From positions 3,596,001-3,660,000 of the forward strand of contig NZ_CP110341.1 of NCBI RefSeq assembly GCF_026013965.1: a stretch of DNA of 64,000 nt, written 5' to 3'. This document shows, in pieces, positions 3,170 to 26,699 of this stretch (the first letter of the stretch is position 1; every line of letters starts with the position of its first letter). The DNA comes from Brevibacterium sp. JSBI002. GTDB taxonomy: Bacteria; Actinomycetota; Actinomycetes; Actinomycetales; Brevibacteriaceae. Under the pieces are notes generated by a model that made no database searches, had not been told where the DNA came from, and saw only the letters and a program-made list of their open reading frames with translations. A program made the translations under genes and the position numbers.

Positions 3170-4576
3170 TCACAGCGAGGGGCGATGGTGCCCGTGCCCC
3201 GTCGCCGCCTCGAAGCAGCGAGCGACGTGGAGGACCATCTCCTCACCGCCGACGGGGCCGATGATCTGCAGTCCGATCGGCAGTCCGGAAGCGCTGAAAC
3301 CGGCAGGCACGCTCAGTGCCGGGCACCCGGTGGCGGAGAACAGCGTTGTGGAATCGACCCATGCCATATAGTCCTCGACCGGACGCGAGTTGATCATCTT
3401 CGGATACTCGTCCTCGGCGGAGAACGGCAGCACTTGGGCCGTGGTGGTGACGAGGACGTCGTGTGTGGTGAAGTAATCATTCATCGCCGAGCACAACCGC
3501 ACGCGCGCACGATCGAAGTCGAAGAGATCATCGGCAGTCAACGCCAACCCGGCGTCGACATCAGCCTGGAGCGAGGCCTTCAGAGTCCCGGGATTCTCCC
3601 GGTTGATGTCGCGCAGGTTGGCCGCGAACTCATAGGCTCTGGCGGTGCGGAACACGTTTCGGGCCTCGCGGAGATCAGGCACGGACTCGCTGAGTCTCGC
3701 CCCGAGCCCGGTGAGAACCGGCCCCGCCGCCTCCACCACGGTCTGCACCTCGGCTTCGAGTTCCAGCCGCCCTGCGAGATCGGGCGAGAAGCCTGCCATA
3801 ATGCCCTGCAGGTCGACTGCGCCGCGGGACAGGATTTCCGACCCGCGCATGTCTCGGCGCTGTGCGCTCGGACTGGTCAGCTCCATGAGCCACGCGACGT
3901 CGTCGACAGTGCGTGCCAGGAACCCCGGTTGGCTCAGCCATTGCCACGGGTCCTCCGGCGGCACCTTCGGCAGACGGCCGTGCGAGGGGCGGAGGCCGAC
4001 GATGTTGGCGAAGGAGGCCGGCAGACGCAATGATCCGCCGGTGTCCGATCCGTCTCCGGCGGCCTGAATGCCACTGGCGATGGCCACAGCCGCTCCGCCG
4101 GACGACCCCGCAGCGGAACGGGTGAGGTCATAGGGATTGAGCGTCGTGCCGAACACGCGGTTGGAGGTGTGCGCTCCTGCCGCGAACTCGGGGACATTCG
4201 ACTTGCCGGTGGAGATCACCCCCGCCGCCTGCAGACGGGCGACGATGGAGCTGCTGCGCTGCGGAACATGATCGGCGAAGATCTCACTGCCATAGGTCGT
4301 GCGCATCCCCGCGGTGTCGTGGGTGTCCTTGTGGGTCATCGGAATCCCGAGGAGCGGCGGCAGGTCGTCACCTCCTGCCATACGTCGTCGATCCGCTTCT
4401 CTGGCGCCGGCGATCGCCCGCTCGGGTTCGAACGTCACGATGGCGTTCGTGACCGGATTGACCTTCTCGATGCGGTCAAGGTGCGCGGTCACCAATTCGA
4501 CGCTGCTGATCTCACGGCGTTCGAGTGCAGCCGCCTGTTCGGTCAGGGAGAGCCAGGTCAGAGCCTCAGAGGTCAC
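3170..4576 (-). CDS. Amidase signature family hydrolase
   Basis: A 468-residue cytoplasmic amidase that would hydrolyse a C-N amide bond by a Ser-cisSer-Lys triad. The residues are visible: Lys83 in PMTHKDTHDTAG, the cis-Ser in AAGSSGGAAVA (158/159) and the nucleophile Ser182 in GSDTGGSLRLPAS. Length is normal for the family (GatA and AtzF relatives). I place the start at GTG 4576, whose GTGA overlaps the stop of the upstream CoxG-like gene, implying translational coupling. It is the last gene of the Mo-hydroxylase operon, so it probably acts late in the pathway, for example on oxamate or another amide, but this is inference. Confidence 0.88.
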   Translation of the reverse strand: MTSEALTWLSLTEQAAALERREISSVELVTAHLDRIEKVNPVTNAIVTFEPERAIAGAREADRRRMAGGDDLPPLLGIPMTHKDTHDTAGMRTTYGSEIFADHVPQRSSSIVARLQAAGVISTGKSNVPEFAAGAHTSNRVFGTTLNPYDLTRSAAGSSGGAAVAIASGIQAAGDGSDTGGSLRLPASFANIVGLRPSHGRLPKVPPEDPWQWLSQPGFLARTVDDVAWLMELTSPSAQRRDMRGSEILSRGAVDLQGIMAGFSPDLAGRLELEAEVQTVVEAAGPVLTGLGARLSESVPDLREARNVFRTARAYEFAANLRDINRENPGTLKASLQADVDAGLALTADDLFDFDRARVRLCSAMNDYFTTHDVLVTTTAQVLPFSAEDEYPKMINSRPVEDYMAWVDSTTLFSATGCPALSVPAGFSASGLPIGLQIIGPVGGEEMVLHVARCFEAATGHGHHRPSL

Positions 4577-5292
4577 CGACGACCGGCCACGATGCCGAGG
4601 CAGACGCCGAGCAGCGCCGCACCCGCTCCGACGGCAGCCCCCGCGAGGAAGCTGTCTCCGACTGGTCGGCACGCCCCCGGCGCACAGCAGTTCGCGCTGG
4701 TCCCGGGGCCTGCCTGCGCACCGACGGCCTCCGGGGCACCGAGCCCGGACGCGCTCCCGCGCCCGGCAGCCTCGGCGCCGTTGCCGGCGGCGAGAACGGT
4801 GCCCTCCTCTGCTGGACTCCCAGCGTCTCGGGACATGGCTGCCTCCGGAACGCCGTCGCGGATCGCGGCGTCGATATCGGCGAAGAACTTCTTGGCGATG
4901 CGTTTGGCGACTCCGCCGAGCATCCTCTGGCCGACTCCGCCGATGGGTCCGCCGAGGACGGCGTCGGCCTCCCAGGTGATGTCGCTGCCGCCGTCGGCGC
5001 CGGGCGCCAGGGCCACCGAGATGTCCGCACCGATGGTGCCGGGCCCGCCCGCCCCCTTCGCGCTGAGAACGAACGACGTGTCTGCGACCTCCTCGGAGAA
5101 CGCGACTGTGCCTTTGTACGTTCCCTTGATCGCGGCGACGCCCATGGTGAGGACGACGTCGAAGCTGTTCTCACCGGTTCGGGTGAAGCTTTCGACGCCG
5201 GGGATCGTCGCGGCCAGGATCTTCTCGTCGTGGAAGGCGGCGTACGCCGTAGCCGGATCTGCGGTCATGGTGGCCGTGGAAGCAATGAGCAT
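4573..5292 (-). CDS. CoxG-like SRPBCC protein with C-terminal membrane anchor
   Basis: A 239-residue protein. Residues 1-145 form an SRPBCC fold typical of CoxG: conserved AYAAFHDEKILAATIPGVES at the start, TYKGTVAF in the middle and AKKFFADIDAAI at the end. Then comes an Ala/Gly/Pro-rich linker with a CCAPGAC cluster, and a C-terminal hydrophobic segment (FLAGAAVGAGAALLGVCLGI) that should anchor it in the membrane. CoxG homologues accompany CO dehydrogenase-type Mo hydroxylases and have been linked to membrane attachment and electron transfer to quinone. It lies 29 bases after the large hydroxylase subunit, so the same job for this enzyme is likely. Confidence 0.85.
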   Translation of the reverse strand: MLIASTATMTADPATAYAAFHDEKILAATIPGVESFTRTGENSFDVVLTMGVAAIKGTYKGTVAFSEEVADTSFVLSAKGAGGPGTIGADISVALAPGADGGSDITWEADAVLGGPIGGVGQRMLGGVAKRIAKKFFADIDAAIRDGVPEAAMSRDAGSPAEEGTVLAAGNGAEAAGRGSASGLGAPEAVGAQAGPGTSANCCAPGACRPVGDSFLAGAAVGAGAALLGVCLGIVAGRR

Positions 5293-5321
5293 GAGTATCG
5301 GTCCTTCGTGTCCGGTTGAGG

Positions 5322-7709
5322 TCAGCGGGAGTGGGCGGCGTCAGCGGCGTGGTCCGCCCGCATGTGCCACAGCGTCGAGGGATCCAGCGGCATGGATCGG
5401 ATCGCAATCCCTTCGGCGTCTTCGATCGCCGAAGCGATGGCGGTGGCAGCGGGGATTGTTCCGGCCTCGCCGGCGCCCTTGATCCCCAGTGGGTTGAGTG
5501 GGCTCGGCGTCTCGAGATGGTCGGTTTCGACGTGCGGGATCTCGGAGGCGAAGGGCATGAGGAAGTCCATGAATGACGCGTTGAGCAGCTGGCCGTCGGT
5601 GTCATAGGCCATCTTCTCGTAGAGCGCTCCGCCGACACCTTGGGCGACTCCGCCGTGGACCTGGCCTTCGACGACGAGCGGATTGACCATCGGCCCGCAG
5701 TCATGGACGACGCAGTATCGGAGTATCCGGATATCCGCCGTCTCCGGGTCGGTTTCGACGATCGCGGCATGGATGCCGTTGGCAACGGTCGAGCGCAGAG
5801 GCGAGAAGAACTCCTGCTCTTCGAGCCCCGGCTGCTCCCCCGGACGGATCGACGGCTCGTCCTCGTCAGATTCCTTGGCGAATTGCGTGGCGGCGCGTGC
5901 ACTCTCGTCGAACGCATAGCGAAGCGGATTCGACAGGACTGACACCGCTGCCAACGGCATCGACGCACTCGCATCGCCCTTGACCTGGACCATTCCCTCG
6001 ACGATCTCCAGATCTTCGGGGTCGGCTTCGAGAGATTCACCCGCGATCCGCAGCGCCTTCTCACGCACCTTCTTCGCGGTGAGATGAAGTGCATTGCCTG
6101 CCATTACCGCCCCGCGCGAGCCCCATGTGCCCACCGAGTACGGCAGTTTGCGCGTATCTCCGGTCGTGACGTGGACCGTGTCGAGCGGGACTCCCAGTTC
6201 ATCGGCGACGATCTGAGCGAATACCGTTGCATGGGCTTGGCCGTGTGAGGTCAGCCCCGTCCACACGTTGACCCGTCCTGAGGACTCGATCTCGATGTGG
6301 CCGCCTTCATAGGGCCCGGCTCCTGTGCTCTCGATATAGCAGGCGAGTCCGATTCCGACCTGGCGGCCTTCGCTGCGCGCCTGCTCACGATACGACTCGA
6401 ACTCATCCCAGCCGACGAGTGACTTGAGCTTGTCGAGCGACGTGACGAAGTCGCCGGAGTCAATGCAGCCTTCCGCTCCGTCCTGCATCCGCAGGCCCAT
6501 GGGATGGGGGAATTCGCGGACGAAGTTGCGCAGACGCACTTCGGCCCGGTCGAGGCCCAGTTCGGCCGCGATCGCGTCCATCGTCCTCTCCATCATGAAC
6601 ACGGCGTGAGCTCTGCCCGCGCCGCGATACGGGGTGACCATGACGGTGTTCGTGTAGAGCGACCAGTACTCGACGCGGAACGCCGGGATCGCGTAGGGGC
6701 CCATGATGTGCGTCGAGGTGTTGAGCGGGACGATCACCCCATAGGGCAGGTAGGCGCCGTTGTCATGCCAGAACTTGACGTCGAGCCCGAGGATCCGGCC
6801 CTCGTCATCGAAGCCGACCCTGACCCACTGGGTCTGGGCCCTCTCGTGGGCGGAGGAGATGAAGTGCTCGCGACGGTCCTCTGTCCATTTGACCGTGGTC
6901 TCGAGCGCTCGGGCGGCGCAGGCCACGGCGAGTTCCTCCGGCCAGGGATGGTTGATCTTCACTCCGAAGGCTCCGCCGACATCAGGTGTGATGACCTCGA
7001 CCTTAGTCAGCGGAAGTTCGAGCTTGGCGGCCAGAACGGCCCGCAGACCGGTGCTCGTCTGCGTCGAGGAGTGAACTTCGAGGCTGCCGTCGCCGGAATC
7101 CCACCGTGCGACGACGCCTTTGCCTTCCATCGGCATGCAGGCGCTGCGTTCGAACTCGAGGTCGAGTTCGAGGACGTGGGGTGCTCCCCCGAGTCCCGAA
7201 TCGATGTCGCCGACCTCCTGCACCAGGTGCGCGGCGACGTTGTCGGTCATTCCCTCATGGACGATTCGCGTCCCGGCGCGCGAGGCTTCGACGCCGACGA
7301 CCGGATCACAGAAGCGGTAGTCGACTTCGATGCGGTTCGCTGCGTCTTCGGCGATATAGCGGTTCTCGGCCACGACCATGACGATGGGCTCGCCGACGAA
7401 ATTCACATGGTCCTTGGCCAGCGCGTACCCGGTGTGAGGGGCGACGATCGAGGGATGCGGGATGAGCATCGGCAGCCGCTGGGCGGCCTCGCCGGGCAGG
7501 TCCTCGTGCGTCCACACCGCAATGACGCCGTCGACGTCGAGGGCGCCGGAGACATCGATGTCGATGATGTCCGCATGGGCGTGTGGACTGCGCACGAATG
7601 CCGCTGCAATCGCCGAGCCGGAGACATCATCGACATAGCGTCCGTGACCGGTGAGCAGACGGGGGTCTTCGCGCCGGGTGATCTTCTGGCCGAAGAGGCG
7701 GGTGGTCAT
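5322..7709 (-). CDS. Molybdenum hydroxylase large (Mo-binding) subunit
   Basis: A 795-residue catalytic subunit of the xanthine oxidase family that binds the molybdopterin cofactor and hydroxylates an N-heterocycle or aldehyde-like carbon with water as oxygen donor. Visible motifs are GGAFG (245-249), the active-site loop PYRGAGR (360-366) and the catalytic Glu748 in KGAGEAGTIPA. The loop is the YRGAGR form, not the CSFR loop of true (form I) CO dehydrogenase, so CO is an unlikely substrate. It overlaps the iron-sulfur subunit by four bases. With NCS2 permease, hydantoinase and carbamoyltransferase genes nearby, a purine, pyrimidine, hydantoin or imidazole-type substrate is most likely. Confidence 0.93.
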   Translation of the reverse strand: MTTRLFGQKITRREDPRLLTGHGRYVDDVSGSAIAAAFVRSPHAHADIIDIDVSGALDVDGVIAVWTHEDLPGEAAQRLPMLIPHPSIVAPHTGYALAKDHVNFVGEPIVMVVAENRYIAEDAANRIEVDYRFCDPVVGVEASRAGTRIVHEGMTDNVAAHLVQEVGDIDSGLGGAPHVLELDLEFERSACMPMEGKGVVARWDSGDGSLEVHSSTQTSTGLRAVLAAKLELPLTKVEVITPDVGGAFGVKINHPWPEELAVACAARALETTVKWTEDRREHFISSAHERAQTQWVRVGFDDEGRILGLDVKFWHDNGAYLPYGVIVPLNTSTHIMGPYAIPAFRVEYWSLYTNTVMVTPYRGAGRAHAVFMMERTMDAIAAELGLDRAEVRLRNFVREFPHPMGLRMQDGAEGCIDSGDFVTSLDKLKSLVGWDEFESYREQARSEGRQVGIGLACYIESTGAGPYEGGHIEIESSGRVNVWTGLTSHGQAHATVFAQIVADELGVPLDTVHVTTGDTRKLPYSVGTWGSRGAVMAGNALHLTAKKVREKALRIAGESLEADPEDLEIVEGMVQVKGDASASMPLAAVSVLSNPLRYAFDESARAATQFAKESDEDEPSIRPGEQPGLEEQEFFSPLRSTVANGIHAAIVETDPETADIRILRYCVVHDCGPMVNPLVVEGQVHGGVAQGVGGALYEKMAYDTDGQLLNASFMDFLMPFASEIPHVETDHLETPSPLNPLGIKGAGEAGTIPAATAIASAIEDAEGIAIRSMPLDPSTLWHMRADHAADAAHSR

Positions 7710-8215
7710 TGCGAAGCCCCCTCAGCGCGCAGCTCGGCGGCTCGTTGCACGGCGGAGACGATGTTCTGATACCCGGTGCAGCGGCAGAGGTTTCCGGACA
7801 CCGCCTCCCGCGCTTCCTCCTCGCTCGGGTGCGGGTTCTCGTCGATATAGGCATCGATGGTCGTGATGAAGCCGGGGGTGCAGAAGCCGCATTGGAGCCC
7901 ATGGCAGTCAATGAATGCCTGCTGCACATCGGCCGGATGCTCGGGATCGTCGCCGATGCCCTCGACCGTCGTCACCTCATGGCCCTGCGCCGAGCCGGCG
8001 AACATGAGACAGGAGCGCACAGGTTCCCCGTCGAGCTGGACGGTGCAGGCCCCGCATACTCCGTGTTCGCAGCCGACATGTGTTCCGGTGAGCTCCAGAT
8101 CCTGCCGCAGCACATCGGAGAGCAGCTTCCGGTCGGGGACTTCGAGCACGTGCAGAGTGCCGTTGACGGTGAGACGGATGGTCGATGTCGGTTCGGTGTC
8201 GAGGCTCTCTGTCAT
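7706..8215 (-). CDS. Molybdenum hydroxylase small [2Fe-2S] subunit
   Basis: A 169-residue electron-transfer subunit with two [2Fe-2S] clusters. The plant-ferredoxin-type site is CEHGVCGAC with a fourth Cys (C49, C54, C57, C69). The second, helical site is CGFC followed by CRC (C109, C112, C144, C146). It is the CoxS/XdhC-type small subunit of normal length and passes electrons from molybdenum to the FAD subunit. Its start overlaps the stop of the FAD subunit gene by four bases (ATGA), and its stop overlaps the large-subunit start. Confidence 0.95.
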   Translation of the reverse strand: MTESLDTEPTSTIRLTVNGTLHVLEVPDRKLLSDVLRQDLELTGTHVGCEHGVCGACTVQLDGEPVRSCLMFAGSAQGHEVTTVEGIGDDPEHPADVQQAFIDCHGLQCGFCTPGFITTIDAYIDENPHPSEEEAREAVSGNLCRCTGYQNIVSAVQRAAELRAEGASQ

Positions 8216-9150
8216 GCTCGTCCTCTCTTCGTGTCGGTTGCTGGTCTCCGGGTGCCGCCGGCCCGCTTCCGTGGGTTCTCACCGCGGCACAGGCGTCGGA
8301 ACAGTCGAGATGCGAGCACTCCGGTGAGGTGGCGACGGTAGTCAGCCGAGGCGTGGATGTCCCCGCCGGGATCGATGAAGTTCCGCACCGCATCGACGAC
8401 TGCATCGGCGGCCTCGGGTGCATCGTTGAGCCCGGTCCCGGACACGAGAGCGTCGAGGTTGAGGATTTCGGGGACGTCGGTGACTGAGATGAAGCCGCAG
8501 CGCAGGCCCGTCACGGTGTCGTCGTCGACGTCGACGATCATTCCCACGCCCGCAAGTCCGTAGTCCCCGCTGCGCCGGGCGAGTTCGTCGAAGCCGGCCC
8601 GAGCCCCGGCCGGCAGACCGGGGAAGACCGCGCGGGTGATGAGTTCGTCAGCTTCGAGACAGGTCTCCAAGGGGCCGACGTTCAGCTCGTCGGCTTCCAG
8701 GGACCTTTCTCCCCGGGTGCTGCGAACGTCGACCCGTCCGCCGGTGAGCGCAAGGATCATGGGCATCTCACCATTGGGGTCGGCATGAGCGATGGAGCCG
8801 ACCGTCGTCCCCCTGTTGCGCACCGCCGGATGGGCGACGAAACGCAGCGCCTCACCGAGGAGGGGATTGGCCGCGGCGATCTCCGCGGAGCGTTCGACCC
8901 GGCGATGCGTGGCCCTGGCCCCCACGATGATCTCGGTCTGCCCGTCATCGCCGGTGACCAAGAGTTCGTCGAGTCCGGACACTGCGGTGATATCGATGAG
9001 ATCGCTGGGAGCGGCGAGCCGCATGTTTAGTACGGGGACGAGACTCTGGCCTCCGGCGAGCACCTTGCCCGCGGCCGAGTGCTCACTCAGCAGATCGAGG
9101 GTGTCCTCAAGCGTCGTCGGCCGGTGGATCCGCAATGGTGGTGGCTTCAT
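8212..9150 (-). CDS. Molybdenum hydroxylase FAD-binding medium subunit
   Basis: A 312-residue CoxM-type flavoprotein. The FAD-binding motifs GGQSLVPVLNMRLA (about residues 38-51) and RNRGTTVGSIAHADPNGEMP (about 111-130) are clear, and the CO_deh_flav_C domain follows. The order medium-small-large in the transcript is the usual cox/cut order. The gene starts only five bases after the NCS2 permease stop, so permease and enzyme are co-transcribed, linking uptake of the substrate to its oxidation. Confidence 0.94.
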   Translation of the reverse strand: MKPPPLRIHRPTTLEDTLDLLSEHSAAGKVLAGGQSLVPVLNMRLAAPSDLIDITAVSGLDELLVTGDDGQTEIIVGARATHRRVERSAEIAAANPLLGEALRFVAHPAVRNRGTTVGSIAHADPNGEMPMILALTGGRVDVRSTRGERSLEADELNVGPLETCLEADELITRAVFPGLPAGARAGFDELARRSGDYGLAGVGMIVDVDDDTVTGLRCGFISVTDVPEILNLDALVSGTGLNDAPEAADAVVDAVRNFIDPGGDIHASADYRRHLTGVLASRLFRRLCRGENPRKRAGGTRRPATDTKRGRA

Positions 9151-9155
9151 CGTTC

Positions 9156-10631
9156 TTATTCGCTCGATTCCGGTTCGCGACGACCACGGTTGTGCTCAAC
9201 CGTGGCGGCGACCTGTGCTTGGTGCCCTTCTCTGCCGACGGACAGCACTGCTCCCCCGGCTCCCCTTTCGGAATCATCGCGCAGGCCAGCAGGTGCCAGC
9301 CACCGCGCAACATGGTACATGACCAGCATAGATATCGTTCCCAACGCGATTCCGGAGAGCACGAAGTCTTCGCTGAATTTCAGGCTCACGTCGCCGATGG
9401 CGATGATGAGTCCCGCAGACACGGGCACTATGTTGAGCGGATTGGCGAAGTTCACGCGGTTCTCAATCCAGATCTTCGCGCCGAGCATGCCGATCATGCC
9501 GTAGAGGACGACGGTGATGCCTCCGAGCACTCCGCCCGGCACGGCAGAGATGAGAGCACCGAACTTCGGTGAGAGACCGAAGAGGATCGCCACGAGCGCC
9601 GCAACCCAATACGCGGCAGTGGAGTAGACCCTGGTTGCGGCCATCACACCGATGTTCTCTGCATAGGTCGTCGTCGGTGAGCCGCCGACCGACGTTGCGA
9701 CGACTGTGGCAACGCCATCGCCGATGACCGCCCGACCCATGTACTTGTCGAGTCGGTCGCCGGTCATCTCCTCCACCGCTTTGACGTGACCGACGTTCTC
9801 GGCCACGAGGGCGATGATGCCCGGCAGCATGACGACGATGGCCGCCGCGTTGAAGACGGGGAGGTGGACTCCGACGACTCCGGCCGCCGTGTCGGTCATG
9901 GGAGGAAATCCGATCCACGGGGCCGAGGCGACACCCGAGAAGTCGACTCGGAAGTGTGTCGTCACTTCTCCGGCGGTCGCGCTGAAGGAGGTGATCTCAC
10001 CGAAGACGCGGTCGAAGATCCAGGAGAGGGCATAGCCGAGGACCAGACCGAGGAACACTGCGATCCGCCCCAAGAAGCCGCGCACCCACACGGAGACGAA
10101 GACGATGAAGATCATGACGATGACGGCGATCCACTGATCCTGCGGCCAATAGGTGCTCGCCACCACCGGAGCGAGGTTGAAGCCGATGAGCATGACGACG
10201 CCGCCGGTGACCACAGGCGGGAGCACCTTCATGAGCGCTCCGGAGCCGACGAAGTGGATGAACGTGCCCACGAGCGCGAGAATCACGCCTGAGACCATGA
10301 TCGCACCGGTCACCTCGGCGGGTGTGCCGCCTTGGGCAGTCACGGCGGTGACACCGCCGACGAACGCCGCGGAGGTGCCGACGTAGCTGGGGACCTTGCC
10401 TTTGACGATGAGCAGGAAGATGATGGTGCCCACACCGGACATCATCACGGCCAGCTGCGGATTGAGCCCCATGATGATCGGGAAGACGAAAGTCGCACCG
10501 AACATGGCCACGACGTGCTGGACGCCGAGGCCGACCGTTCTGCCCCAGCTCAGGCGCTCACCTGGGGCGACGGCACCTCCCGGCGCAATGGTCTTTCCAT
10601 CTCCGTGAAGTGTCCAGGAAAACATCGACAT
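9156..10631 (-). CDS. NCS2-family purine/pyrimidine (xanthine/uracil) permease
   Basis: A 491-residue nucleobase:cation symporter with about 12-14 membrane segments. QHVVAMFGATFVFPIIMG near the N-terminus and the signature region YAENIGVMAATRV are typical of UraA/XanQ/PucJ transporters. ATG 10631 is chosen because GGAGAGG lies six bases upstream; an in-frame start at 10658 lacks this. As first gene of the Mo-hydroxylase operon it should import the heterocyclic substrate. Whether that is xanthine, uracil, hydantoin or another base cannot be told from sequence. Confidence 0.93.
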   Translation of the reverse strand: MSMFSWTLHGDGKTIAPGGAVAPGERLSWGRTVGLGVQHVVAMFGATFVFPIIMGLNPQLAVMMSGVGTIIFLLIVKGKVPSYVGTSAAFVGGVTAVTAQGGTPAEVTGAIMVSGVILALVGTFIHFVGSGALMKVLPPVVTGGVVMLIGFNLAPVVASTYWPQDQWIAVIVMIFIVFVSVWVRGFLGRIAVFLGLVLGYALSWIFDRVFGEITSFSATAGEVTTHFRVDFSGVASAPWIGFPPMTDTAAGVVGVHLPVFNAAAIVVMLPGIIALVAENVGHVKAVEEMTGDRLDKYMGRAVIGDGVATVVATSVGGSPTTTYAENIGVMAATRVYSTAAYWVAALVAILFGLSPKFGALISAVPGGVLGGITVVLYGMIGMLGAKIWIENRVNFANPLNIVPVSAGLIIAIGDVSLKFSEDFVLSGIALGTISMLVMYHVARWLAPAGLRDDSERGAGGAVLSVGREGHQAQVAATVEHNRGRREPESSE

Positions 10632-10827
10632 ATGCCTCTCCTCGCCCTCGGGCATCACAGCGAACGATCCCCTACTCGCGGTGGAATGGCCACCAGAGCT
10701 GACAACCAGGTGCTGACGGACCGTTCCAGCTTAGGTTCAGACTCTATTGCCCCAGTGAGTCATACATCACGTCATTATCTGACAAATACGCCGCATTCCC
10801 TTCGGCATTCTTCGCCAGAGTCTGCGA
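10632..10827. promoter_or_regulatory. Upstream region of the permease/Mo-hydroxylase operon with a candidate regulator site
   Basis: A relatively AT-rich gap between the pucR-type gene and the permease. At 10770-10786, minus strand, it contains TTTGTCAGATAATGACG. A very similar 17-mer lies upstream of hyuA (25131-25147) and in the allH/regulator intergenic space (12554-12570). I infer a shared operator, possibly for the neighbouring PucR protein. No promoter hexamers are certain. Confidence 0.45.
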
Positions 10828-12510: not shown

Positions 12511-12596
12511 GGATGTCAATTCCTGCTGACTGGCAATCGATTCCTTGGCATCATTTGACATCCATTGACGATAGCAGGCCGGGATACTCTGTCGAA
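12511..12596. promoter_or_regulatory. Divergent control region between PucR-type regulator and allH
   Basis: This 86-base gap separates two divergent genes. TTTGACATCCATTGACG at 12554-12570 matches 12 of 17 positions of the site upstream of the permease operon. If the regulator starts at the alternative ATG 12561, this site would cover its start codon. Candidate autoregulatory and activation site; inferred only from sequence similarity. Confidence 0.4.
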
Positions 12597-19004: not shown

Positions 19005-19918
19005 CGGCTGCCGCCTCCGAGTGATCTCAGGGCAGAGCCGGCGGGATCGAGGTCATCCGCTTCCTTGAGGACAGCGGAGAGGGTCGCGGCTGCCGACGGT
19101 TCATCGAGTTCTTCGAGACCGAGGCTGTGCAGGGCCCGGAGCCAATCGATGGTCTCCGCTGTCCCGGGCGGTTTGATGAGATCGACCCTGCGCAGTCGAT
19201 TCGCCGCATCGATGACAGCCTCGCGCAGGGACGACTCCGCCTGTGGCACATGCAGCGACAAGATCCGTGATTCTGCTGCGGCATCCGGTTGTTCGAACCA
19301 GTGGTAGAGACAGCGTCGGCGCAGCGCATCGTGGAGATCTCGCGTGCGGTTCGAGGTGAGGATGACCAGCGGAGGGGTCTCGGTCGAGATCGTGCCGAGT
19401 TCGGGGATGCTGATCGACCAGTCGGCGAGGGCTTCGAGCAGAAGAGCGTCGAATTCGTCTCCTGCGCGGTCGACCTCGTCGATGAGCAGCACGGGCCTCG
19501 GATCGTCTGATCCCAGACCCTGTGAGTCTTCGATGGCCTGCAGTATCGGGCGCGCCAGGAGGAAAGCTCGATCGTGGAGTTCGTCGTCGAGGCGCAGCGC
19601 ATCGATCGGCTCGCCCGCCACCGTCGAGGCCGCTTCGATCGTTCTCACATGGAGGATCTGCTTCGCGAAGTCCCAGTCATAGAGAGCTTGGCTGGATTCG
19701 AGACCGTCGTGACATTGCAGGCGGATGAGCGGGCCACCTGAGGCGCGGGCGAGCGCTCGAGCCAAGCTCGTCTTGCCGACGCCCGGAACGCCTTCGCACA
19801 GGAGCGGCTTCCCGAGCCGATGGGCGAGCACGCAGGCGGTCGCCAGTTCGGACGTGACGATGTGTCCTGCCCGTTCCAATGCCTGCTCCAGGGATCGGGG
19901 ATCACTGAAAATCGTCAT
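19001..19918 (-). CDS. MoxR/CoxD-type AAA+ ATPase
   Basis: A 305-residue AAA+ ATPase. Walker A is GVPGVGKT (43-50) and Walker B is LLIDEVDRAGDEFDALLLEAL. The DWDFAKQIL stretch is typical of CoxD-type MoxR proteins. In Oligotropha, CoxD is required to build the active site of CO dehydrogenase; here the hydroxylase has a YRGAGR loop, so the pair may assist sulfuration or cofactor loading instead. It starts 27 bases after the carbamate kinase stop, in the same transcript. Confidence 0.9.
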   Translation of the reverse strand: MTIFSDPRSLEQALERAGHIVTSELATACVLAHRLGKPLLCEGVPGVGKTSLARALARASGGPLIRLQCHDGLESSQALYDWDFAKQILHVRTIEAASTVAGEPIDALRLDDELHDRAFLLARPILQAIEDSQGLGSDDPRPVLLIDEVDRAGDEFDALLLEALADWSISIPELGTISTETPPLVILTSNRTRDLHDALRRRCLYHWFEQPDAAAESRILSLHVPQAESSLREAVIDAANRLRRVDLIKPPGTAETIDWLRALHSLGLEELDEPSAAATLSAVLKEADDLDPAGSALRSLGGGSR

Positions 19919-19945: not shown

Positions 19946-20884
19946 CTACCGATCGTCCGAGGTCACCACGGTGCCGACAGTTCCGGACACGGCGGCCGCG
20001 AGCTGGGCGAGCTCGGTGATGACGGCTCGCTGTCCGCCGTTGTCGACGAAGTCGATGATCGCGTCGACCTTCGGCCCCATCGACCCGGAGGCGAATGTGC
20101 CTGTGCTGCGCAGCTCCTTGAGCTGTGCCGCGCTCACGGCTCCGACGTCGCGTGCCTGAGGTGTGCCGTAGCCGGCAACGGCACAGGGGACATCGGTGGC
20201 GATGATGAGCAGGTCGGCGCCGACTGAGGCGGCGAGCTTCGCGGCACTGAGGTCTTTGTCGATGACGGCGGAGATCCCGGTGCTTCCTCCTTCTGCAGGA
20301 ACAACGGGGATCCCGCCGCCGCCCGCAGCGACGACGACCCAACCGGAATCGGCGAGGAAAGAGACCATCGGAGTCTCGAGGATCTCCACCGGTCTGGGCG
20401 AGGCCACAACCCGGCGCCATCCTTTCTCCCCGAAGTCCTTCCACGTCTGTCCGTGCGCCGTCATCTCGGCGGCGAAGGCAGCGTCTTGGTACGAGCCGAT
20501 CGGCTTGACCGGGTCGGCGAACGCAGGATCGTCAGGGTCGACGACCGTCCGCGTCACCACAGCGGCGACCTTGCTGTCGAGTCCCCGGGTGCAGAGTTCA
20601 CGTTCGAGTTCGCTCACGATCGTGAACCCGAGCGTGCCCTGTGTCTGCGCTCCGCACCAGTCCAAGCCCACCGGCGGAAGTTCGTGCGCTGAGAGTTCGT
20701 TCTTGCGCAGGATGTTCCCGACCTGCGGGCCGTTCCCATGGGTGATGACGAGTTCATGTCCGGCTGCTGTGAGGTCGGCCAGATGAGCTGCCGCGGCGGC
20801 GATCGCACGCTGCTGGGCGGGCGGAGAGGCGTCTCCGCCCGGTCCCGTCATCGCGTTGCCCCCGAGGGCGACGAGGACTCTCAC
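19946..20884 (-). CDS. arcC: Carbamate kinase
   Basis: A 312-residue carbamate kinase that converts carbamoyl phosphate and ADP to carbamate (then ammonia and CO2) and ATP. Family motifs are VALGGNAM at the N-terminus, VITHGNGPQVGNIL, VVAAGGGGIPVV, VIDKDLSAAKLA and GSMGPKVDA. The start overlaps the hyuB stop by four bases. Paired with an AllFGH-type carbamoyltransferase it is the energy-yielding last step, as in E. coli allantoin fermentation (AllK). There are no arginine deiminase genes nearby, which argues against an arginine role. Confidence 0.95.
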   Translation of the reverse strand: MRVLVALGGNAMTGPGGDASPPAQQRAIAAAAAHLADLTAAGHELVITHGNGPQVGNILRKNELSAHELPPVGLDWCGAQTQGTLGFTIVSELERELCTRGLDSKVAAVVTRTVVDPDDPAFADPVKPIGSYQDAAFAAEMTAHGQTWKDFGEKGWRRVVASPRPVEILETPMVSFLADSGWVVVAAGGGGIPVVPAEGGSTGISAVIDKDLSAAKLAASVGADLLIIATDVPCAVAGYGTPQARDVGAVSAAQLKELRSTGTFASGSMGPKVDAIIDFVDNGGQRAVITELAQLAAAVSGTVGTVVTSDDR

Positions 20885-22941
20885 AGCCAGTCGACCGCCG
20901 CGGCTGCGGACCCATCGCCGGAGAGCTGAGCGTAGCCGGGTCCCCGGTCGAAGAAGGGCCTGTTCTCCTCACGGTCACCGCGCATCTGCGCACGCAGCGT
21001 CTGCGTTGCCGCCTCATCGACCTGTGCATCGTCGACGCCGGCCGCATCGGCGCCGACCGTGGAACTCAGGTCGGCGGTGATGACGACACCGTAGGCCTCA
21101 CGGGCGCCGTCGATGCTCACCTTGCCCCATCGCACGTCACGCAGAACTTCGTCGCTCGGACGATCGAGGGGGTCTCCCCAGCCTCCCCCGCCGGTGGTTC
21201 TGATGCGCACGATCTCTCCGGCGCGGATCTCTTCGGCGTCGGCGAGCGCATCGACCTCACGCTCGTTCGGACCGCCCGGGTCGATGGTCACTTGGAACGG
21301 TCGGCCTGCCTTTCCTCCCTTGACACCCCAGCAGGCCAAGATCGAGCGGTCGGCGATCGACATGAAGTGAGCGTCCTTGAGCATCCGAATGTGCTTTTCG
21401 TAGCCGAGGCCCCCACGGTAGCGGCCTGCACCGCCCGAGTCGACAGCCAGTCCGAGCCGCTCGACACGGAAGGGGAAGCGGGACTCCGTGAATTCCGTCG
21501 GCAGGTTCCGAGAATCCGGGACGACATGGATTGTGTCTTCGCCATCGGAGTAGTAGCGTCCGCCCGATCCCCCGCCGAGGACCTCGCGCATGAGGTAGTC
21601 CTTGCCGTCTCGATCCTTCCCGTAGACACCGGTGTAGCGGATCGTCTCCTGGTCAGCCGGCATGCGACCGTCCACGGCCTTGGCGACGACGCCCGCGAGG
21701 ACACCGAGGAGGCGGAGGATGACGAATGTGCGCGCATTGGTCGGGCCGGGGAATTCAGGAGTGAGCAGGGTGCCTTTCTCCGGGAATCGCATCTCGATGA
21801 GGGGGACGATCCCCTCGTTGACATCGAGCTCGGCCATGCGCTCAGGGGTATCGGCGAGATTGCGCAGGATCGGGGCGAGCCACTTCTTGAGGAAGTTCCC
21901 TCCCACATAGTCTCCGCAGTGGTTGATCGGGCCTGCCGCCTGCGCGGCTGTTCCCGTGAAGTCGACGATGAGTCGGGGGCCATCGTCGGGACCGCCGGTC
22001 GCCGTCTTCGTCAAGGTGATGCGCTGCGTGTGGAGCATCGGGTCGGAGACGCCGTCGTGCTCCGCGTAGTCCTCCCAGACATATTGGCCGTCCGGAATCT
22101 TCGACAGGATCTCGCGGCGATAGATCTCGGTGGAATTCTGCAGAATCGTGTCGAAGGCGGTTTCGACGGTCTCAACTCCATAGCGGGTGAAGAGCTCGGA
22201 CAGACGGCGCGCCCCCATGAGGCAGGCCGAGCATTCGGCGTCGAGGTCGGCCGAAAGCGAATCGGGCATCCGTGAATTGCGCGTCATGATCCGCAGTGCT
22301 GAGGCGTTCGGGGTGCCTTCGGACCAGAGTCTGATCGGCGGGATCATCAGCCCCTCTTCGAAGACGCTCGTGGCCCCCGAAGGCATCGAACCCGGGCAGG
22401 CGCCTCCGATGTCGTCATGGTGGCCGAAGGCCTGGACGAAGCATACGACGCGCCCTTCGGCGAACACAGGAACGGTCACGCACATATCAGGGAGGTGGCC
22501 GATGCCGCCTTCGGATTCGTAGACGTCGTTGTGGAAGAAGACATCCCCTTCCCGCATCTCCTCGATGGGGAAGTCACGCACGACCGGATGGACCAGCGCT
22601 GAGTATGAGCGCCCCGTGAGCTTGCGCAGCTGGCGATCGTGGATGCCTGCACGGAAGTCGTGGGCGTCGCGGATCATCGGCGAACGTGAAGTGCGCGCTA
22701 TCGAGGTTTCGACTTCCATCTCCACGCTCGCGAGTGTGCCTTCGACGATCTCGACGATGATCGGATCGACGCTCGACCCCGGCGCGGTCAGGCGATTGCC
22801 GTGCTCATAGGCGGTCGGCAGCCCTGCGGGGTTGATCGGTGAGGCGGCGATGTAGTCGGCGAGCTCTTGGCCCTTCAGGGCTTCGGTGCGCAGCATCGAT
22901 CCCGAGTCGACGGCCGATGTGCCTGCAGCTGTGGTGGTCAT
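20881..22941 (-). CDS. hyuB: Hydantoinase B / oxoprolinase beta-type subunit
   Basis: A 686-residue HyuB-family subunit. Typical stretches are DPIIVEIVEGTLASVEMEVETS, FFHNDVYESEGGIGHLPDM, FGHHDDIGGACPGSM and the C-terminal RTTGGGGWGDPLDR. With HyuA it forms an ATP-dependent amidohydrolase that opens five-membered cyclic imides or amides such as N-methylhydantoin or 5-oxoproline. The four-base overlaps with hyuA before it and carbamate kinase after it indicate one tightly coupled operon. The ring substrate here is unknown. Confidence 0.93.
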   Translation of the reverse strand: MTTTAAGTSAVDSGSMLRTEALKGQELADYIAASPINPAGLPTAYEHGNRLTAPGSSVDPIIVEIVEGTLASVEMEVETSIARTSRSPMIRDAHDFRAGIHDRQLRKLTGRSYSALVHPVVRDFPIEEMREGDVFFHNDVYESEGGIGHLPDMCVTVPVFAEGRVVCFVQAFGHHDDIGGACPGSMPSGATSVFEEGLMIPPIRLWSEGTPNASALRIMTRNSRMPDSLSADLDAECSACLMGARRLSELFTRYGVETVETAFDTILQNSTEIYRREILSKIPDGQYVWEDYAEHDGVSDPMLHTQRITLTKTATGGPDDGPRLIVDFTGTAAQAAGPINHCGDYVGGNFLKKWLAPILRNLADTPERMAELDVNEGIVPLIEMRFPEKGTLLTPEFPGPTNARTFVILRLLGVLAGVVAKAVDGRMPADQETIRYTGVYGKDRDGKDYLMREVLGGGSGGRYYSDGEDTIHVVPDSRNLPTEFTESRFPFRVERLGLAVDSGGAGRYRGGLGYEKHIRMLKDAHFMSIADRSILACWGVKGGKAGRPFQVTIDPGGPNEREVDALADAEEIRAGEIVRIRTTGGGGWGDPLDRPSDEVLRDVRWGKVSIDGAREAYGVVITADLSSTVGADAAGVDDAQVDEAATQTLRAQMRGDREENRPFFDRGPGYAQLSGDGSAAAAVDWL

Positions 22942-25067
22942 TTGCTGTCCTCCTGACCGGTCGTGCGGGTGATGATGATGTTCGCGGCGCGATCGATGCG
23001 CGCGGTGAAATTCGGATGGAGCGGCACCGTGGAGCCGAACTCCTCGATGACCGCCGGTCCGACGATCTCATCGCCGTTGAGCAGGTGCTCACGCCAGTAG
23101 ACCGGGGTGTCGACGAAGTCCTCGGCCGCGTCGAAGCAGACGGGGCGGCGACCGGTCTGTGCCCTCTCGTCGAGAGCCGGCGCATTCTCTGCCGACTCGA
23201 TGTGGCGGGTCTGGGGCCGGGTGATCGGCCCGATACCGGACACCCTGAGGTTGACCCATTCGACGAACTGATCGTCTTTGTCGGCGAAGTCGTAGCCGTA
23301 GAGCTTGCGGTGCTCGGCGTGGAATGCCTGTGTGACCTCATCGGCCCAGTCCCTGGTGATCGGCCCCGCCGGCGCAGGGACGCGGACTTCAAAGGCCTGT
23401 CCGAAGTACCGCAGGTCGACCGTGCGGTCGAATTGGTGGTCGTCGCTCGGGAAGCCCTCGTTGTCCAGAGCCTCGGCAGCCCGATGCGTCAGTCCCGCGA
23501 AGATCGCGGAGACCTCGTCGATATCGAGGCGGTCATCGCGGCTGACATGTGTCTGCACGTAGTCGTTCTTCACGTCGACGGTGAGCAGACCGAAGGCGGA
23601 GACGTTGCCGGGGTTGAGAGGAACGACGACTCCGGCGAGGTCGAGGACGTCGACGAGGGTGCAGGCGAGCAGCGAGCCCGATCCGCCGAAAGTTGCGAGC
23701 ATGAAGTCGCGGACATCGAGCCCCCGCTGCACCGAGATCTGACGCAGAGCATTCGCCTGGTTCCAGGCTGAGATCTCGAGGATGCCGGTTGCCGCCTTCT
23801 CCGCGGTCAGCCCGAGTCGCTGAGCGATCTCGTCGATGCCGGACCTGGCGGCCTCGACGTCGAGCGGGATTTCTCCGCCGAGGAGGTGGGGCGGGATCCG
23901 CCCGAGGTAGACGTGGGCATCGGTGATCGTCGGCTCGGTGCCGCCGTTTCCGTAGCAGATGGGGCCCGGGTCGGCGCCCGCCGACTGGGGACCGACCTTG
24001 AGCTGGCCCTCTGGGGTCGTCCACGCGATCGATCCGCCGCCGGCGCCGACGGTCACAACGTCGATCATCGGGATCTTCGATGGGTATACGCCGACGCTGC
24101 CTTCGGTCGTCAGGGCCGGCTCACCGTCGATGACGACGGTGACATCCGTCGAGGTACCCCCGCCGTCGCAGGTGAGCACCTTGTCGAATCCGGCTTCCCG
24201 GGCGATGAGACCGGCGCCAAGGGCTCCAGCGGCCGGGCCGGAGAGTACGGTGGTGATCGGCTGGTTGACGACTTCTTCGGCAGACAGGACTCCGCCGTTG
24301 GACTTCATGATGTAGAACGGCAGCGCGGAGTCTGCGCCGACGCCGGTGTAGGCGTCGAGGCGGTCGTGGATGTTGCGCACATACTTCGAGACCTTCGGCT
24401 TGACGGCCGCGTCGACGAGCGTCGTCATCGACCGCTCGTACTCTCGATACTCTCGCAGCACCTCGGAGCTCAACGACACCGTCGCCTCAGGGTGGATCTC
24501 GGTGAGGATCTCGCGCATCTTCTGCTCGTGAGCCGGGTTGGCGTAGGCGTGGAGGAAGTTCACGCCCAGTGTCATGACGCCCTGATCTTTGAACCACTGG
24601 GCGACCTCGCGCGCCTGAGCCTCGTCGAACGGGCGGACTTCGCCGCCCTCGAAATCGAGACGCCCCGAGACGGTCTTGACCAGATCGGCAGGGACGATGC
24701 GCTCCGGCTTGACCCAGAAGTACGAGTTGCCGTAGCCGTCGGGCACTGCCTGACGTGCGATCTCGAGGACGAATTCGTAGCCTTCGGTCGTGATGAAGCC
24801 GAGGCGGTCGAGCTTGCCTTCGAGGAGTTGGTTGGTGGCCACAGTCGTTCCGTGGCTGACAGCGCTGATGTGCTCCGCTGTGACGGAATCGCCGAGCATC
24901 GCCAGCACTTTGTCGATGCCGTTGATGAAGCCGTCGGCCGGGTTCGAAGGCGTCGACGGCGTCTTCGTCGTCGTCAGTGTGCCGCTGGTTTCGTCGAAGG
25001 CGACGATATCGGTGAATGTTCCACCGGTATCGATGCCGATGCGGATTCGAGGAGCGTTGGGCGACAT
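22938..25067 (-). CDS. hyuA: Hydantoinase A / oxoprolinase alpha-type subunit
   Basis: A 709-residue HyuA-family ATP-binding subunit with the actin-like nucleotide motif RIGIDTGGTFTDIVAFDE at the N-terminus, SHGTTVATNQLLE, and VLTCDGGGTSTDVTVV in the middle. I place the start at ATG 25067, which has AGGAAGGA seven bases upstream; ATG 25103 is possible. It is the first gene of the hyuAB-arcC-coxDE-xdhC transcript. Expected role: phosphorylation-driven ring opening to an N-carbamoyl acid. Confidence 0.93.
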   Translation of the reverse strand: MSPNAPRIRIGIDTGGTFTDIVAFDETSGTLTTTKTPSTPSNPADGFINGIDKVLAMLGDSVTAEHISAVSHGTTVATNQLLEGKLDRLGFITTEGYEFVLEIARQAVPDGYGNSYFWVKPERIVPADLVKTVSGRLDFEGGEVRPFDEAQAREVAQWFKDQGVMTLGVNFLHAYANPAHEQKMREILTEIHPEATVSLSSEVLREYREYERSMTTLVDAAVKPKVSKYVRNIHDRLDAYTGVGADSALPFYIMKSNGGVLSAEEVVNQPITTVLSGPAAGALGAGLIAREAGFDKVLTCDGGGTSTDVTVVIDGEPALTTEGSVGVYPSKIPMIDVVTVGAGGGSIAWTTPEGQLKVGPQSAGADPGPICYGNGGTEPTITDAHVYLGRIPPHLLGGEIPLDVEAARSGIDEIAQRLGLTAEKAATGILEISAWNQANALRQISVQRGLDVRDFMLATFGGSGSLLACTLVDVLDLAGVVVPLNPGNVSAFGLLTVDVKNDYVQTHVSRDDRLDIDEVSAIFAGLTHRAAEALDNEGFPSDDHQFDRTVDLRYFGQAFEVRVPAPAGPITRDWADEVTQAFHAEHRKLYGYDFADKDDQFVEWVNLRVSGIGPITRPQTRHIESAENAPALDERAQTGRRPVCFDAAEDFVDTPVYWREHLLNGDEIVGPAVIEEFGSTVPLHPNFTARIDRAANIIITRTTGQEDSK

Positions 25068-25216
25068 CGTCGTCCTTCCTGGTCGCGTGGGATTTGTCAC
25101 CATCTTTCCCTGTGACTGGGCTCACTGAACCGGCAAGAGCTGACAAATAGCACGAAGCTTGTTGGCGAGATTTCACAGTCACGTGGCGGGTGGTGACTCG
25201 TGCGGCGGGACTCGCC
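25068..25216. promoter_or_regulatory. Promoter region of the hyuAB operon with candidate regulator site
   Basis: TTTGTCAGCTCTTGCCG lies at 25131-25147 on the minus strand, about 65 bases upstream of the chosen hyuA start. It shares the ten-mer TATTTGTCAG, and 15 of 19 positions, with the site upstream of the permease operon at 10770. I infer co-regulation. No clear -35/-10 pair can be defended. Confidence 0.45.
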
Positions 25217-26035
25217 TCAGGCGACGAGCAGCTCCTCCGCGAGCACCTCGTCGAGGCCGCGAGCATCTCGTCCGAGGATGGCGGGGATCCCCGCCGCCCC
25301 ACAGGGCAGGCCATAGCGGTCATAGTAGGCGAACATCGCCGTCAGCCATTCTCGTTCGCGCGCATCGAGTCCGCTGCCGTTGTGCTCCTGCCCGGCCGCC
25401 CACGCGCGTGGACTCGTCACCTCGAGAGCCACCTCGGTGCCGAGCACTGCCTCCGCGGCTCGGGCCACATCGCGCACCGTCACGAGCTGCGGTCCGCCGA
25501 TTTCGAGAGTCGCCCCGATATGACTGTCGCCTGCGAGCAGGTGCGCGGCCGCTTCACCGACGTCGCGCAGGCTGATGAGCCCGAAGGGAGTATCCGGGTC
25601 GTACGGGACGGTGATCTGAGGGTCATGACCGCGCAGCCCGGGCAGGAAGTTGTCGATATACGCGCAGGGTTCGACGATGGTGAAGGGCAGCGAACTGCGG
25701 CGCACGCGGTCCTCGGACTCGGCCTTGGCGAGATGGTGCGGCATCGCCGGGGCGTATGGTGAGGCCACCGAGTGGTAGACGATCCGTTCGACACCGGCGG
25801 CGTGGCAAGCCCCAAGGAGCATCTCGATGAAGCCGACTTCATCGCTGTGCAGGTTCGGCGCCATGAGGTAGACGGATCGGCATCCCTGCAGCGCGGTGAT
25901 GGGATCGGCGAGGTCTGCCCGCCCCAAAGTCACTGGCACGCCGCCTGCGGAGCTCACAGCTGCCGCGACGGCACGGCCTGTCTTCCCGGTTCCGGAGACG
26001 ATGCCGATCCTGTCCGCTCTGGCTTGTGGTTTCAC
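25217..26035 (-). CDS. NmrA/SDR-like NAD(P)-binding protein
   Basis: A 272-residue atypical short-chain dehydrogenase or NmrA-like protein. The N-terminal Rossmann motif is GIVSGTGKTGRAVAAAV, the strand-end VYLMAPN and YHSVASPYAPAM follow, and the rest matches azoreductase/NmrA-type proteins. GTG 26035 is taken as start, with GGAAGC upstream and 13 bases after the stop of the nucleotidyltransferase gene. It lacks a clear catalytic Tyr-x3-Lys pair, so it may be a sensor or reductase. Its role in the pathway cannot be assigned. Confidence 0.75.
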   Translation of the reverse strand: MKPQARADRIGIVSGTGKTGRAVAAAVSSAGGVPVTLGRADLADPITALQGCRSVYLMAPNLHSDEVGFIEMLLGACHAAGVERIVYHSVASPYAPAMPHHLAKAESEDRVRRSSLPFTIVEPCAYIDNFLPGLRGHDPQITVPYDPDTPFGLISLRDVGEAAAHLLAGDSHIGATLEIGGPQLVTVRDVARAAEAVLGTEVALEVTSPRAWAAGQEHNGSGLDAREREWLTAMFAYYDRYGLPCGAAGIPAILGRDARGLDEVLAEELLVA

Positions 26036-26048
26036 GATGAGCTTCCGT

Positions 26049-26699
26049 TCATGAGTGGATGTCTGCGAGGTGCAGTCCGAATCGGGCTGCGGCCTCCGGG
26101 GTGTCGATGTCGGCCAGCCCGTCTCGACCGGCTGGCAGCAGGTCCGCGCATTCGATGCCGGAGACGCCGCCGCGGCTGGAGTGGCGGCGGAGCATGACCC
26201 GCAGTCCTTCGTCCCCGGCAGCGGCCGCGTGCGCTTCGGCGATGTGTGCACGACCGAGGCCGACGGGGTGACCGGGAACCGAGTTCCAGTGTGCGCGGGC
26301 GAGGTGCTCCGGAACCGTCGCATCGAGCAGGCGACCGTAGGCCTCAGCTGGGACATCGGGAAGATCGAGCAGAGAGATGACGACTCCGGCAGCTATGTTC
26401 GGCACCGCGCTCAGCCCAGCGCGCAGCGAGGTGCTCAGGCCCTGTCGGTGCTCAGGGTTCTCGACGATCCGTGCTCGGCCCGGCACCAGTCGGGAGGCCC
26501 GATCAGCCGCCGGGCCGAGCACGACGATGACGTTCGAGTCGCATCCTCGGGCGGTAGCCGCGGTCAGCATCCTTTCGACCTGCACGGTCAGCAGCGCGGT
26601 GCCGTCCGCGTATTTGAGCAGTGCCTTCGGCCCGCCCATCCGAGTTCCGCTGCCGGCCGCCAACAGCAGCAGACTCGGGATCTCTCTCACCTGCTCCAT
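26049..26699 (-). CDS. MocA-like molybdenum cofactor cytidylyltransferase
   Basis: A 216-residue nucleotidyltransferase. The fingerprint LLAAGSGTRMGGPKALLKY, the metal-binding LLDLPDVP and the later GHPVGLGRAHI and DIDTPEAA place it in the MobA/MocA group. MocA converts Mo-molybdopterin to the cytosine dinucleotide form used by CoxL-type hydroxylases. Sitting in the same block as the Mo hydroxylase and XdhC, that is the most likely job. It could also be a related sugar nucleotidyltransferase, but the GxRMGxPK motif and context favour MocA. Confidence 0.85.
   Translation of the reverse strand: MEQVREIPSLLLLAAGSGTRMGGPKALLKYADGTALLTVQVERMLTAATARGCDSNVIVVLGPAADRASRLVPGRARIVENPEHRQGLSTSLRAGLSAVPNIAAGVVISLLDLPDVPAEAYGRLLDATVPEHLARAHWNSVPGHPVGLGRAHIAEAHAAAAGDEGLRVMLRRHSSRGGVSGIECADLLPAGRDGLADIDTPEAAARFGLHLADIHS

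Follow-up and report, generated by a model that had tools for sequence, protein, structure and literature searches.

A probable locus for oxidative pyrimidine breakdown through a molybdenum hydroxylase, HyuAB and AllFGH in Brevibacterium sp. JSBI002

A 64,000-nucleotide stretch of the Brevibacterium sp. JSBI002 genome (contig NZ_CP110341.1, positions 3,596,001 to 3,660,000; here the window) holds, between its positions 3170 and 26699, genes for an NCS2 permease, a CoxLMS-type molybdenum (Mo) hydroxylase with maturation proteins, HyuAB, AllH, an AllF-AllG fusion, carbamate kinase (CK), an amidase and a PucR regulator, which raises the question of which heterocycle they serve to break down. All of these genes, named in a preliminary description of the sequence, were confirmed by the Pfam and NCBIfam profile searches with which gene families were assigned. 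That description proposed parabanate, oxalurate and oxamate as intermediates. The outline order it gave (import, Mo hydroxylation, ring opening by HyuAB with ATP, phosphorolysis by AllFGH, ATP recovery by CK, and the amidase) is supported, but the oxalurate and oxamate chemistry is not, and these substrates are probably wrong, as a linked barbiturase, a pyrimidine-type permease and the AllG tree point to uracil or thymine via barbiturate. Nor is such a pathway undescribed, as had been thought: the route from uracil and thymine via barbiturate dates from the 1950s according to passages in PMC3758960.

Based on the barbiturase linkage, the permease and the AllG tree, the block is probably a locus for oxidative pyrimidine (uracil/thymine) breakdown via CoxLMS, HyuAB, AllFGH, CK and the amidase. 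The NCS2 permease would import uracil or thymine, and CoxLMS, matured by XdhC, CoxD, CoxE and the MobA-like protein, would oxidize C6 of the base, yielding barbiturate or 5-methylbarbiturate. The ring would then be opened by HyuAB with ATP to give ureidomalonate, an N-acyl urea, a step for which most relatives also have barbiturase. AllH and the AllF-AllG fusion would convert ureidomalonate and phosphate to malonamate and carbamoyl phosphate, as the Escherichia coli oxamate carbamoyltransferase (OXTCase) does with oxalurate; CK would make ATP from the carbamoyl phosphate, with release of CO2 and ammonia, and the amidase would split malonamate into malonate and ammonia. Since ureidomalonate, like oxalurate, is an N-acyl urea, carbamoyl transfer to phosphate leaves a primary amide in either case (malonamate or oxamate). 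We infer every substrate and the order of steps from the genes, their motifs, linkage, co-occurrence and tree position.

The block recurs in relatives. In a survey of 60 family genomes, AllG was present in 18 (the window's own, 15 congeners and two other genera), and stretches of 24–40 kb around AllG were taken from the 17 relatives. The order coxGLSM-NCS2-pucR-allFG-xdhC-coxE-coxD-CK-hyuB-hyuA is kept in all 15 AllG-positive congeners; this rests on tblastn, as a simple open reading frame caller missed some congener frames. By the same means the amidase was found in 10 and allH in 11 of these congeners, several of which also have a MobA-like gene between coxD and CK. Stop-to-stop frames of 1015–1350 residues at AllG recur in the window's genome and the 15 congeners, so the AllF-AllG fusion is no local accident; the frames in the two other genera span 502–543 residues. 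One of these genera (G059) has the order CK-hyuBA-coxGLSM-NCS2-pucR-allFG, and the other (G057) has two loci, coxGLSM-NCS2-pucR-allH-allF-allG and, ∼45 kb away, barbiturase-CK-hyuBA. HyuB orthologues (80–100% identity) occur in 19 of the 60 genomes, namely G016 and the 18 with AllG, beyond which the highest-scoring match has 280 bits and 33% identity, and CoxL orthologues (E ≤ 1e-150) occur in exactly the same 19. G016 (L264:1900-20000) has the amidase, coxGLSM, NCS2, pucR, xdhC, coxE, coxD and hyuBA, and lacks allH, allFG and CK together, so the latter appear to be gained and lost as a single module. An amidase linked to coxG is present in 11 of the 18 AllG-positive genomes, the window's own included, and in G016. 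The recurrence of the block is not due to chance, which supports the view that its genes form one pathway, and the conserved co-occurrence of CoxLMS, HyuAB and AllFG proposed as a check in the preliminary description was found in both this survey and the phylum survey below.

Barbiturase is present, genome-wide, in seven of the 18 AllG-positive family genomes, adjoins CoxGLSM or CK and HyuAB in relatives, and in three of the seven sits in the amidase's place after coxG. The barbiturase beside CK and hyuBA in G059 scores 663 bits against the solved barbiturase 5hwe, whereas its top-scoring cyanuric acid hydrolase reaches 332 bits. Passages in Peat et al. (2013; PMC3758960) give Asn, His, Lys, Val and Ser/Ala as barbiturase (Bar-type) residues where cyanuric acid hydrolases have Arg, Thr, Arg, Gly and Gly. 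The first four are present in 7/7 family proteins, 21/26 phylum proteins and 80/80 listed named proteins, these last having been sought with a Bar alignment. At the fifth position every family protein and every listed named protein has Ser or Ala, but 10 of the 21 Bar-type phylum proteins have Gly. Among the five remaining phylum proteins of the AtzD family, two are of the cyanuric type and three, from family f51 (one cut short), fit neither.

The phylum survey covered 396 genomes, drawn evenly, of which 49 had AllG, 26 PF09663 (21 of them Bar-type), 25 a HyuB orthologue (E ≤ 1e-150) and 30 a CoxL orthologue (E ≤ 1e-200). AllG occurs in 21/21 Bar-type genomes and in 0/5 with other AtzD-family proteins (Fisher P ∼1e-21, shared ancestry ignored). 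CoxL is present in all 25 HyuB-positive genomes and AllG in 24, the exception being G437 (80% complete). A Bar-type protein is found in 20 of the 30 CoxL genomes and HyuB or a Bar-type protein in 27, with the three f51 genomes as exceptions; the sole Bar-type genome without a CoxL orthologue (G363) has a distant CoxL (28%) adjoining its barbiturase. AllG and CoxL share a contig in 17 of 26 genomes, 2.4–10.9 kb apart, and lie on separate contigs in nine; CoxL and HyuB share one in 19 of 25, 3.9–33.5 kb apart.

In named genomes, barbiturase loci number at least 80. In the best 80 matches listed, with flanks of up to 10 kb, many ending at contig ends, and counting matches of >70 bits, CK occurs in 72 loci, hyuB in 54, hyuA in 49, coxG in 30, coxL in 28 and a window-like amidase in 19 (13 between coxG and hyuA, six adjoining barbiturase). 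The longer loci follow, with variations, the order allG-allF facing away from pucR-NCS2-coxM-coxS-coxL-coxG-(amidase)-hyuA-hyuB-CK-barbiturase, and as the window locus shares their genes and order it counts as orthologous to them. Relatives of the linked genes in named organisms belong to the actinobacteria. AllG is present in 21 of 25 named genomes taken from the 80; in the four without it (Rhodococcus erythropolis, Rhodococcoides fascians, Rhodococcus sp. IEGM 1409 and Haloechinothrix halophila) an amidase directly adjoins barbiturase and no CK was found in the stretch read. R. erythropolis NBRC 15567 has barbiturase-amidase-NCS2-coxMSLG-hyuAB, with AllG absent genome-wide.

An amidohydrolase stands between barbiturase and NCS2 in G376 (L114:9203-10486), with relatives in L113, L142 and L146; it resembles cytosine deaminases (197–198 bits, below cut-off), although a general amidohydrolase matches it best (219 bits), and it supports the pyrimidine reading weakly. 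Barbiturase is followed in Nocardioides/Pimelobacter (L200, L223, L228) by another Mo hydroxylase, a distant one (CoxL 33–34%). The three f51 genomes (G240, L145:5676-12062; G251; G356) have a CoxMSL relative (CoxL 49–50%) with the AtzD-family protein that fits neither residue set, and in G240 an amidase adjoins that protein; the f51 system possibly acts on another ring substrate. As these proteins lack the Bar residues, the idea of f51 as a minimal CoxL-barbiturase-amidase cluster was dropped. CoA transferase, nitrilase-like and acyl-CoA synthetase neighbors in single lineages fell below the NCBIfam cut-offs shown.

The permease reads A/E/H/Y/A/E at UraA positions 73/241/245/288/289/290, identical at all six to the pyrimidine symporter RutG, and is thus probably of pyrimidine type. 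Glu at positions 241 and 290 is kept in 20/20 linked permeases aligned. XanQ and UacT have Gln at 290, unlike the window permease. This residue argues against the purine alternative, in which CoxLMS would be a xanthine or hypoxanthine dehydrogenase; although CoxL has distant matches to xanthine dehydrogenases and the regulator is of PucR type, xanthine dehydrogenase models fall far below their cut-offs on CoxL, and this alternative appears very improbable.

The solved structures closest to CoxL are 6-hydroxypseudooxynicotine dehydrogenase (433 bits) and quinoline 2-oxidoreductase (424 bits), both related to N-heterocycles, with a CoxL (8uem) close behind at 404 bits. At position 361 it has YRGAGR in place of YRCSFR, the carbon monoxide (CO) dehydrogenase active-site motif, and it is paired with HyuB in 19/19 family and 25/30 phylum CoxL-positive genomes. 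That these are CO oxidation genes merely standing beside nitrogen genes is scarcely credible against this evidence, despite the match to the NCBIfam model NF040766, "aerobic carbon-monoxide dehydrogenase large subunit" (1403 bits vs. a cut-off of 950), a name that we think is a misnomer for this CoxL group. CoxL matches in three draft genomes (G068, G083, G338) each contain one in-frame TGA.

The AllF, AllG and AllH domains (PF00549, PF06545 and PF11392) are all above cut-off in the window proteins. FdrA (3dmy) aligns to residues 110–492 of the fusion and 3clq to residues 585–988, and the FdrA model NF004760 gives 391 bits, below its cut-off of 433. A tree of AllG was built from 80 rows: E. 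coli AllG, 18 sequences from the family, 31 from the phylum (20 weaker phylum matches being omitted) and 30 of the 31 found in named genomes. The window AllG lies in a 65-row clade, with an inner 59-row fork supported at 99/93, and E. coli AllG lies outside. Of the 65 rows, 44 were not chosen by barbiturase, and HyuB or a Bar-type protein is present in the genomes of all of them (44/44); the remaining 21 were chosen by barbiturase and are uninformative on this point. Also outside the clade are a pair of fused copies with an AllD-like gene as neighbor, three copies that adjoin an isochorismatase-like gene, and nine second copies from six genomes that have another AllG inside it; the AllD-like and isochorismatase-like neighbors were judged by eye from their N-termini. 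The window AllFGH is therefore likely to be an OXTCase-like enzyme with another acceptor. An AllF-AllG fusion in another clade (L133, L134; G439, G447) is accompanied by the AllD-like dehydrogenase, CK and PucR; this locus probably does serve oxalurate, and its fusion probably arose independently. In L130, L131 and L132, AllFG and CK adjoin the isochorismatase-like hydrolase.

This grouping, away from E. coli and from AllD-like-linked AllG, tells against the parabanate route of the preliminary description, in which a heterocycle would be converted to parabanate, HyuAB would yield oxalurate and AllFGH oxamate. The closest solved structure to HyuA is an N-methylhydantoinase (7hk5, 473 bits), which would suit such a route, as would the action of E. 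coli AllFGH (OXTCase) on oxalurate/oxamate described in passages of PMC11326118. With the permease of pyrimidine type and barbiturase linked to the locus, it is nonetheless very unlikely, and both it and the purine reading were rejected as the main explanation based on the AllG tree, permease residues and barbiturase linkage.

Which enzyme opens the ring is the next question, and here HyuAB appears to be the best candidate, because the window genome is without barbiturase. The step between CoxLMS and AllFGH requires an enzyme that opens the ring, for which HyuAB is the sole candidate common to barbiturase-less genomes. HyuB is present without a Bar-type protein in 7/25 phylum genomes (G000, G072, G087, G091, G194, G216, G437) and without barbiturase in 12/19 family genomes. 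HyuAB keeps the ATP motifs DxGGT and GxxPGP and the metal-site His/Asp, with metal residues assigned by motif rather than by structure and motif definitions taken from passages of PMC8453981. In family f10 (G091, G194, G216; 92–96% complete), coxM-coxS-coxL-hyuA-hyuB-allF-allG are contiguous, their ends overlapping in G091 and G194, and PF09663 has no match genome-wide in any of the three. In G194, coxM also overlaps a gene resembling acyl-CoA synthetases.

Much less likely, though the strongest of the rival readings, is that the locus is indeed one for pyrimidines and that the amidase opens barbiturate in the window clade, having displaced barbiturase, with HyuAB serving another step such as that on 5-methylbarbiturate from thymine. 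Barbiturase (seven genomes, searched genome-wide) and the coxG-linked amidase (11, fetched stretches only) never occur together in the 18 AllG-positive family genomes, barbiturase can take the amidase's place after coxG as described above, and HyuAB is kept alongside barbiturase in 7/7 family and 18/21 phylum genomes. Against this, the two coexist in the 13 listed named loci with the amidase between coxG and hyuA, which weakens the idea that the amidase replaces barbiturase, and f10 has HyuAB, no barbiturase and, in the stretches read, no window-like amidase. Amidase-signature enzymes also mostly cut linear amides. The amidase was considered as a malonamidase E2 and this was rejected (75 bits only, below many other amidases). 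One acyl-specific amidase could cut malonamate where AllFGH is present and ureidomalonate where it is not (G016, Rhodococcus). Barbiturase is not known to take 5-methylbarbiturate, and where both enzymes coexist HyuAB may serve that compound.

A number of observations weigh against pyrimidine breakdown with ring opening by HyuAB. The window genome itself has no match to PF09663 (barbiturase/AtzD family), and seven of the 20 linked permeases (26–30% identity) have Asp, not His, at UraA 245, like XanQ. The NF040766 match to CoxL and the weak basal fork of the 65-row AllG clade (89/44) count here too. HyuB is also present in 18/21 Bar-type phylum genomes, so HyuAB may perform another step, and a simple replacement of barbiturase by HyuAB was rejected as too simple. 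CoxLMS and HyuAB occur without AllG in G016, G437 (80% complete), Haloechinothrix and three rhodococci (L173/L277 and L172/L278 being the only rhodococcal stretches in which CoxL and HyuAB were read), and the three f51 genomes have their CoxL relative without HyuB or a Bar-type protein. No CK, NCS2 or AllH was found in the f10 stretches read, hyuB of G216 (a draft genome) has an in-frame stop (TAA), and a PF04199 cyclase-family protein near AllG in G091 and in G072 is a possible alternative ring-opening hydrolase.

Taking the oxidative pyrimidine reading further, HyuAB of this clade might be a second, unrelated kind of barbiturase that depends on ATP, and AllFGH a ureidomalonate (malonamate) carbamoyltransferase. 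Together with CK they would break down pyrimidines with recovery of energy and release ammonia, neither urea nor urease being involved. The CoxLMS enzymes listed in NCBIfam as aerobic CO dehydrogenase (group 5) might also be uracil/thymine dehydrogenases. We hold this combined reading with somewhat less than even confidence, lowered because the f10 stretches are without CK and one has a further hydrolase. Urease alpha has no match in the window genome; in the family, urease was above cut-off in 3/18 AllG-positive vs. 18/42 AllG-negative genomes (one of these 18 being a 28-residue match), a difference that was not significant (P = 0.08). The PreA-type dihydropyrimidine dehydrogenase of the reductive pathway was above the NF006183 cut-off in 0/60 family genomes, the window's included.

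The genes of the block are collected in Table 1. The window genome is a single 3.74-Mb contig, and the minus-strand runs amidase-coxG-coxL-coxS-coxM-NCS2 and xdhC-coxE-coxD-CK-hyuB-hyuA are nearly gapless, with an exact 4-base overlap at five of their 10 joints; the plus-strand pair of AllH and the fusion sits between them, adjoining the PucR regulator. The full NmrA-like frame (25217-26356, 379 residues) overlaps the MobA-like gene and relatives mostly align over ∼64–80% of it; the gene probably starts some way inside this frame. Relatives of this protein occur in 19 of the 80 listed barbiturase loci, mostly right after hyuB.

Table 1. Genes of the block, with window coordinates, strand and supporting matches; roles given as candidate are predictions.
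Feature	Position	Strand	Evidence
Amidase-signature hydrolase, candidate for malonamate (or ureidomalonate) to malonate	3170..4672	-	PF01425 304 bits; MTHKDT, GSSGG, GSDTGGS stretches
CoxG-like protein	4573..5292	-	PF06240 77.6 bits
CoxL-like Mo subunit, candidate uracil/thymine dehydrogenase large subunit	5322..7709	-	MoCoBD_1/2, Ald_Xan_dh_C; YRGAGR and GAGE motifs
CoxS-like [2Fe-2S] subunit	7706..8215	-	PF01799, PF00111
CoxM-like FAD subunit	8212..9150	-	PF00941, PF03450
NCS2 permease, probably pyrimidine type	9156..10658	-	PF00860 246 bits; UraA-site residues as RutG
PucR-type regulator	10828..12699	-	PF07905, PF17853, PF13556; frame overlaps allH, real start probably further in
AllH-like subunit	12489..13655	+	PF11392 61.6 bits, cut-off 25 (weak)
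AllF-AllG fusion, 1002 residues, candidate ureidomalonate:phosphate carbamoyltransferase with AllH	13640..16648	+	PF06545 302.8 bits, PF00549 100.7 bits
XdhC/CoxI-type Mo-cofactor maturation protein	16747..18111	-	PF13478, PF02625
CoxE-like VWA maturation protein	17877..19004	-	PF05762
CoxD-like AAA ATPase	19001..19918	-	PF00004, PF07728
Carbamate kinase	19946..20884	-	PF00696; TIGR00746 330.5 bits, cut-off 358; 39% identity to E. coli YbcF/AllK
HyuB subunit, ATP-dependent amidohydrolase, candidate ring opener	20881..22941	-	PF02538 455 bits; RDAHD, HLPD, GHHDD at metal-site regions
HyuA ATP-binding subunit	22938..25103	-	PF01968, PF05378, PF19278; DTGGTFTD, DGGGTSTD, GADPGP
NmrA-like NAD(P)-binding protein	25217..26000, start approximate	-	PF05368 50.9 bits
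MobA-like NTP transferase, probably Mo-cofactor maturation	26049..26699	-	PF12804 94.9 bits

With the oxidative pyrimidine route and barbiturase already known, the block is probably a variant of an existing system. The R. erythropolis pathway consists of uracil dehydrogenase, barbiturase and ureidomalonase, and the barbiturase of that species has been characterized. R. erythropolis NBRC 15567 shares with the window a related permease, Mo hydroxylase, HyuAB and amidase (there beside barbiturase), whereas the window genome lacks barbiturase and has the AllFGH and CK that were not found there (AllG genome-wide, CK in the stretches read). Bar-type members of the barbiturase/AtzD family stand in the same locus in relatives and are missing from the window genome. 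The window has the AllF, AllG, AllH and carbamate kinase families in common with E. coli allFGHK, but AllF and AllG are fused, AllG belongs to another clade and the neighbors differ. The earlier observation that AllB, AllC and AllD of E. coli are absent is borne out within the window, where tblastn (E ≤ 1e-3) matched neither these nor AllE, the rest of the genome not being searched; E. coli AllH likewise had no tblastn match in the window. The ATP and metal-site motifs are those of the N-methylhydantoinase, caprolactamase and 5-oxoprolinase systems, yet HyuAB falls below the NCBIfam caprolactamase cut-offs, and orthologues of the window type occur only alongside CoxL in both surveys. No publication linking CoxLMS, HyuAB or AllFGH to barbiturase was found in a search limited to titles, abstract starts and passages, in a collection that lacks most subscription papers.

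The locus offers candidate genes for an old pyrimidine route, for which the passages on the route name only barbiturase at the gene level. If the proposed functions are true, the naming of a group of Mo enzymes now called CO dehydrogenase would be corrected, the new OXTCase family would be extended to a second acceptor, and the block would provide a testable case in which the ATP cost of ring opening is repaid through carbamoyl phosphate.

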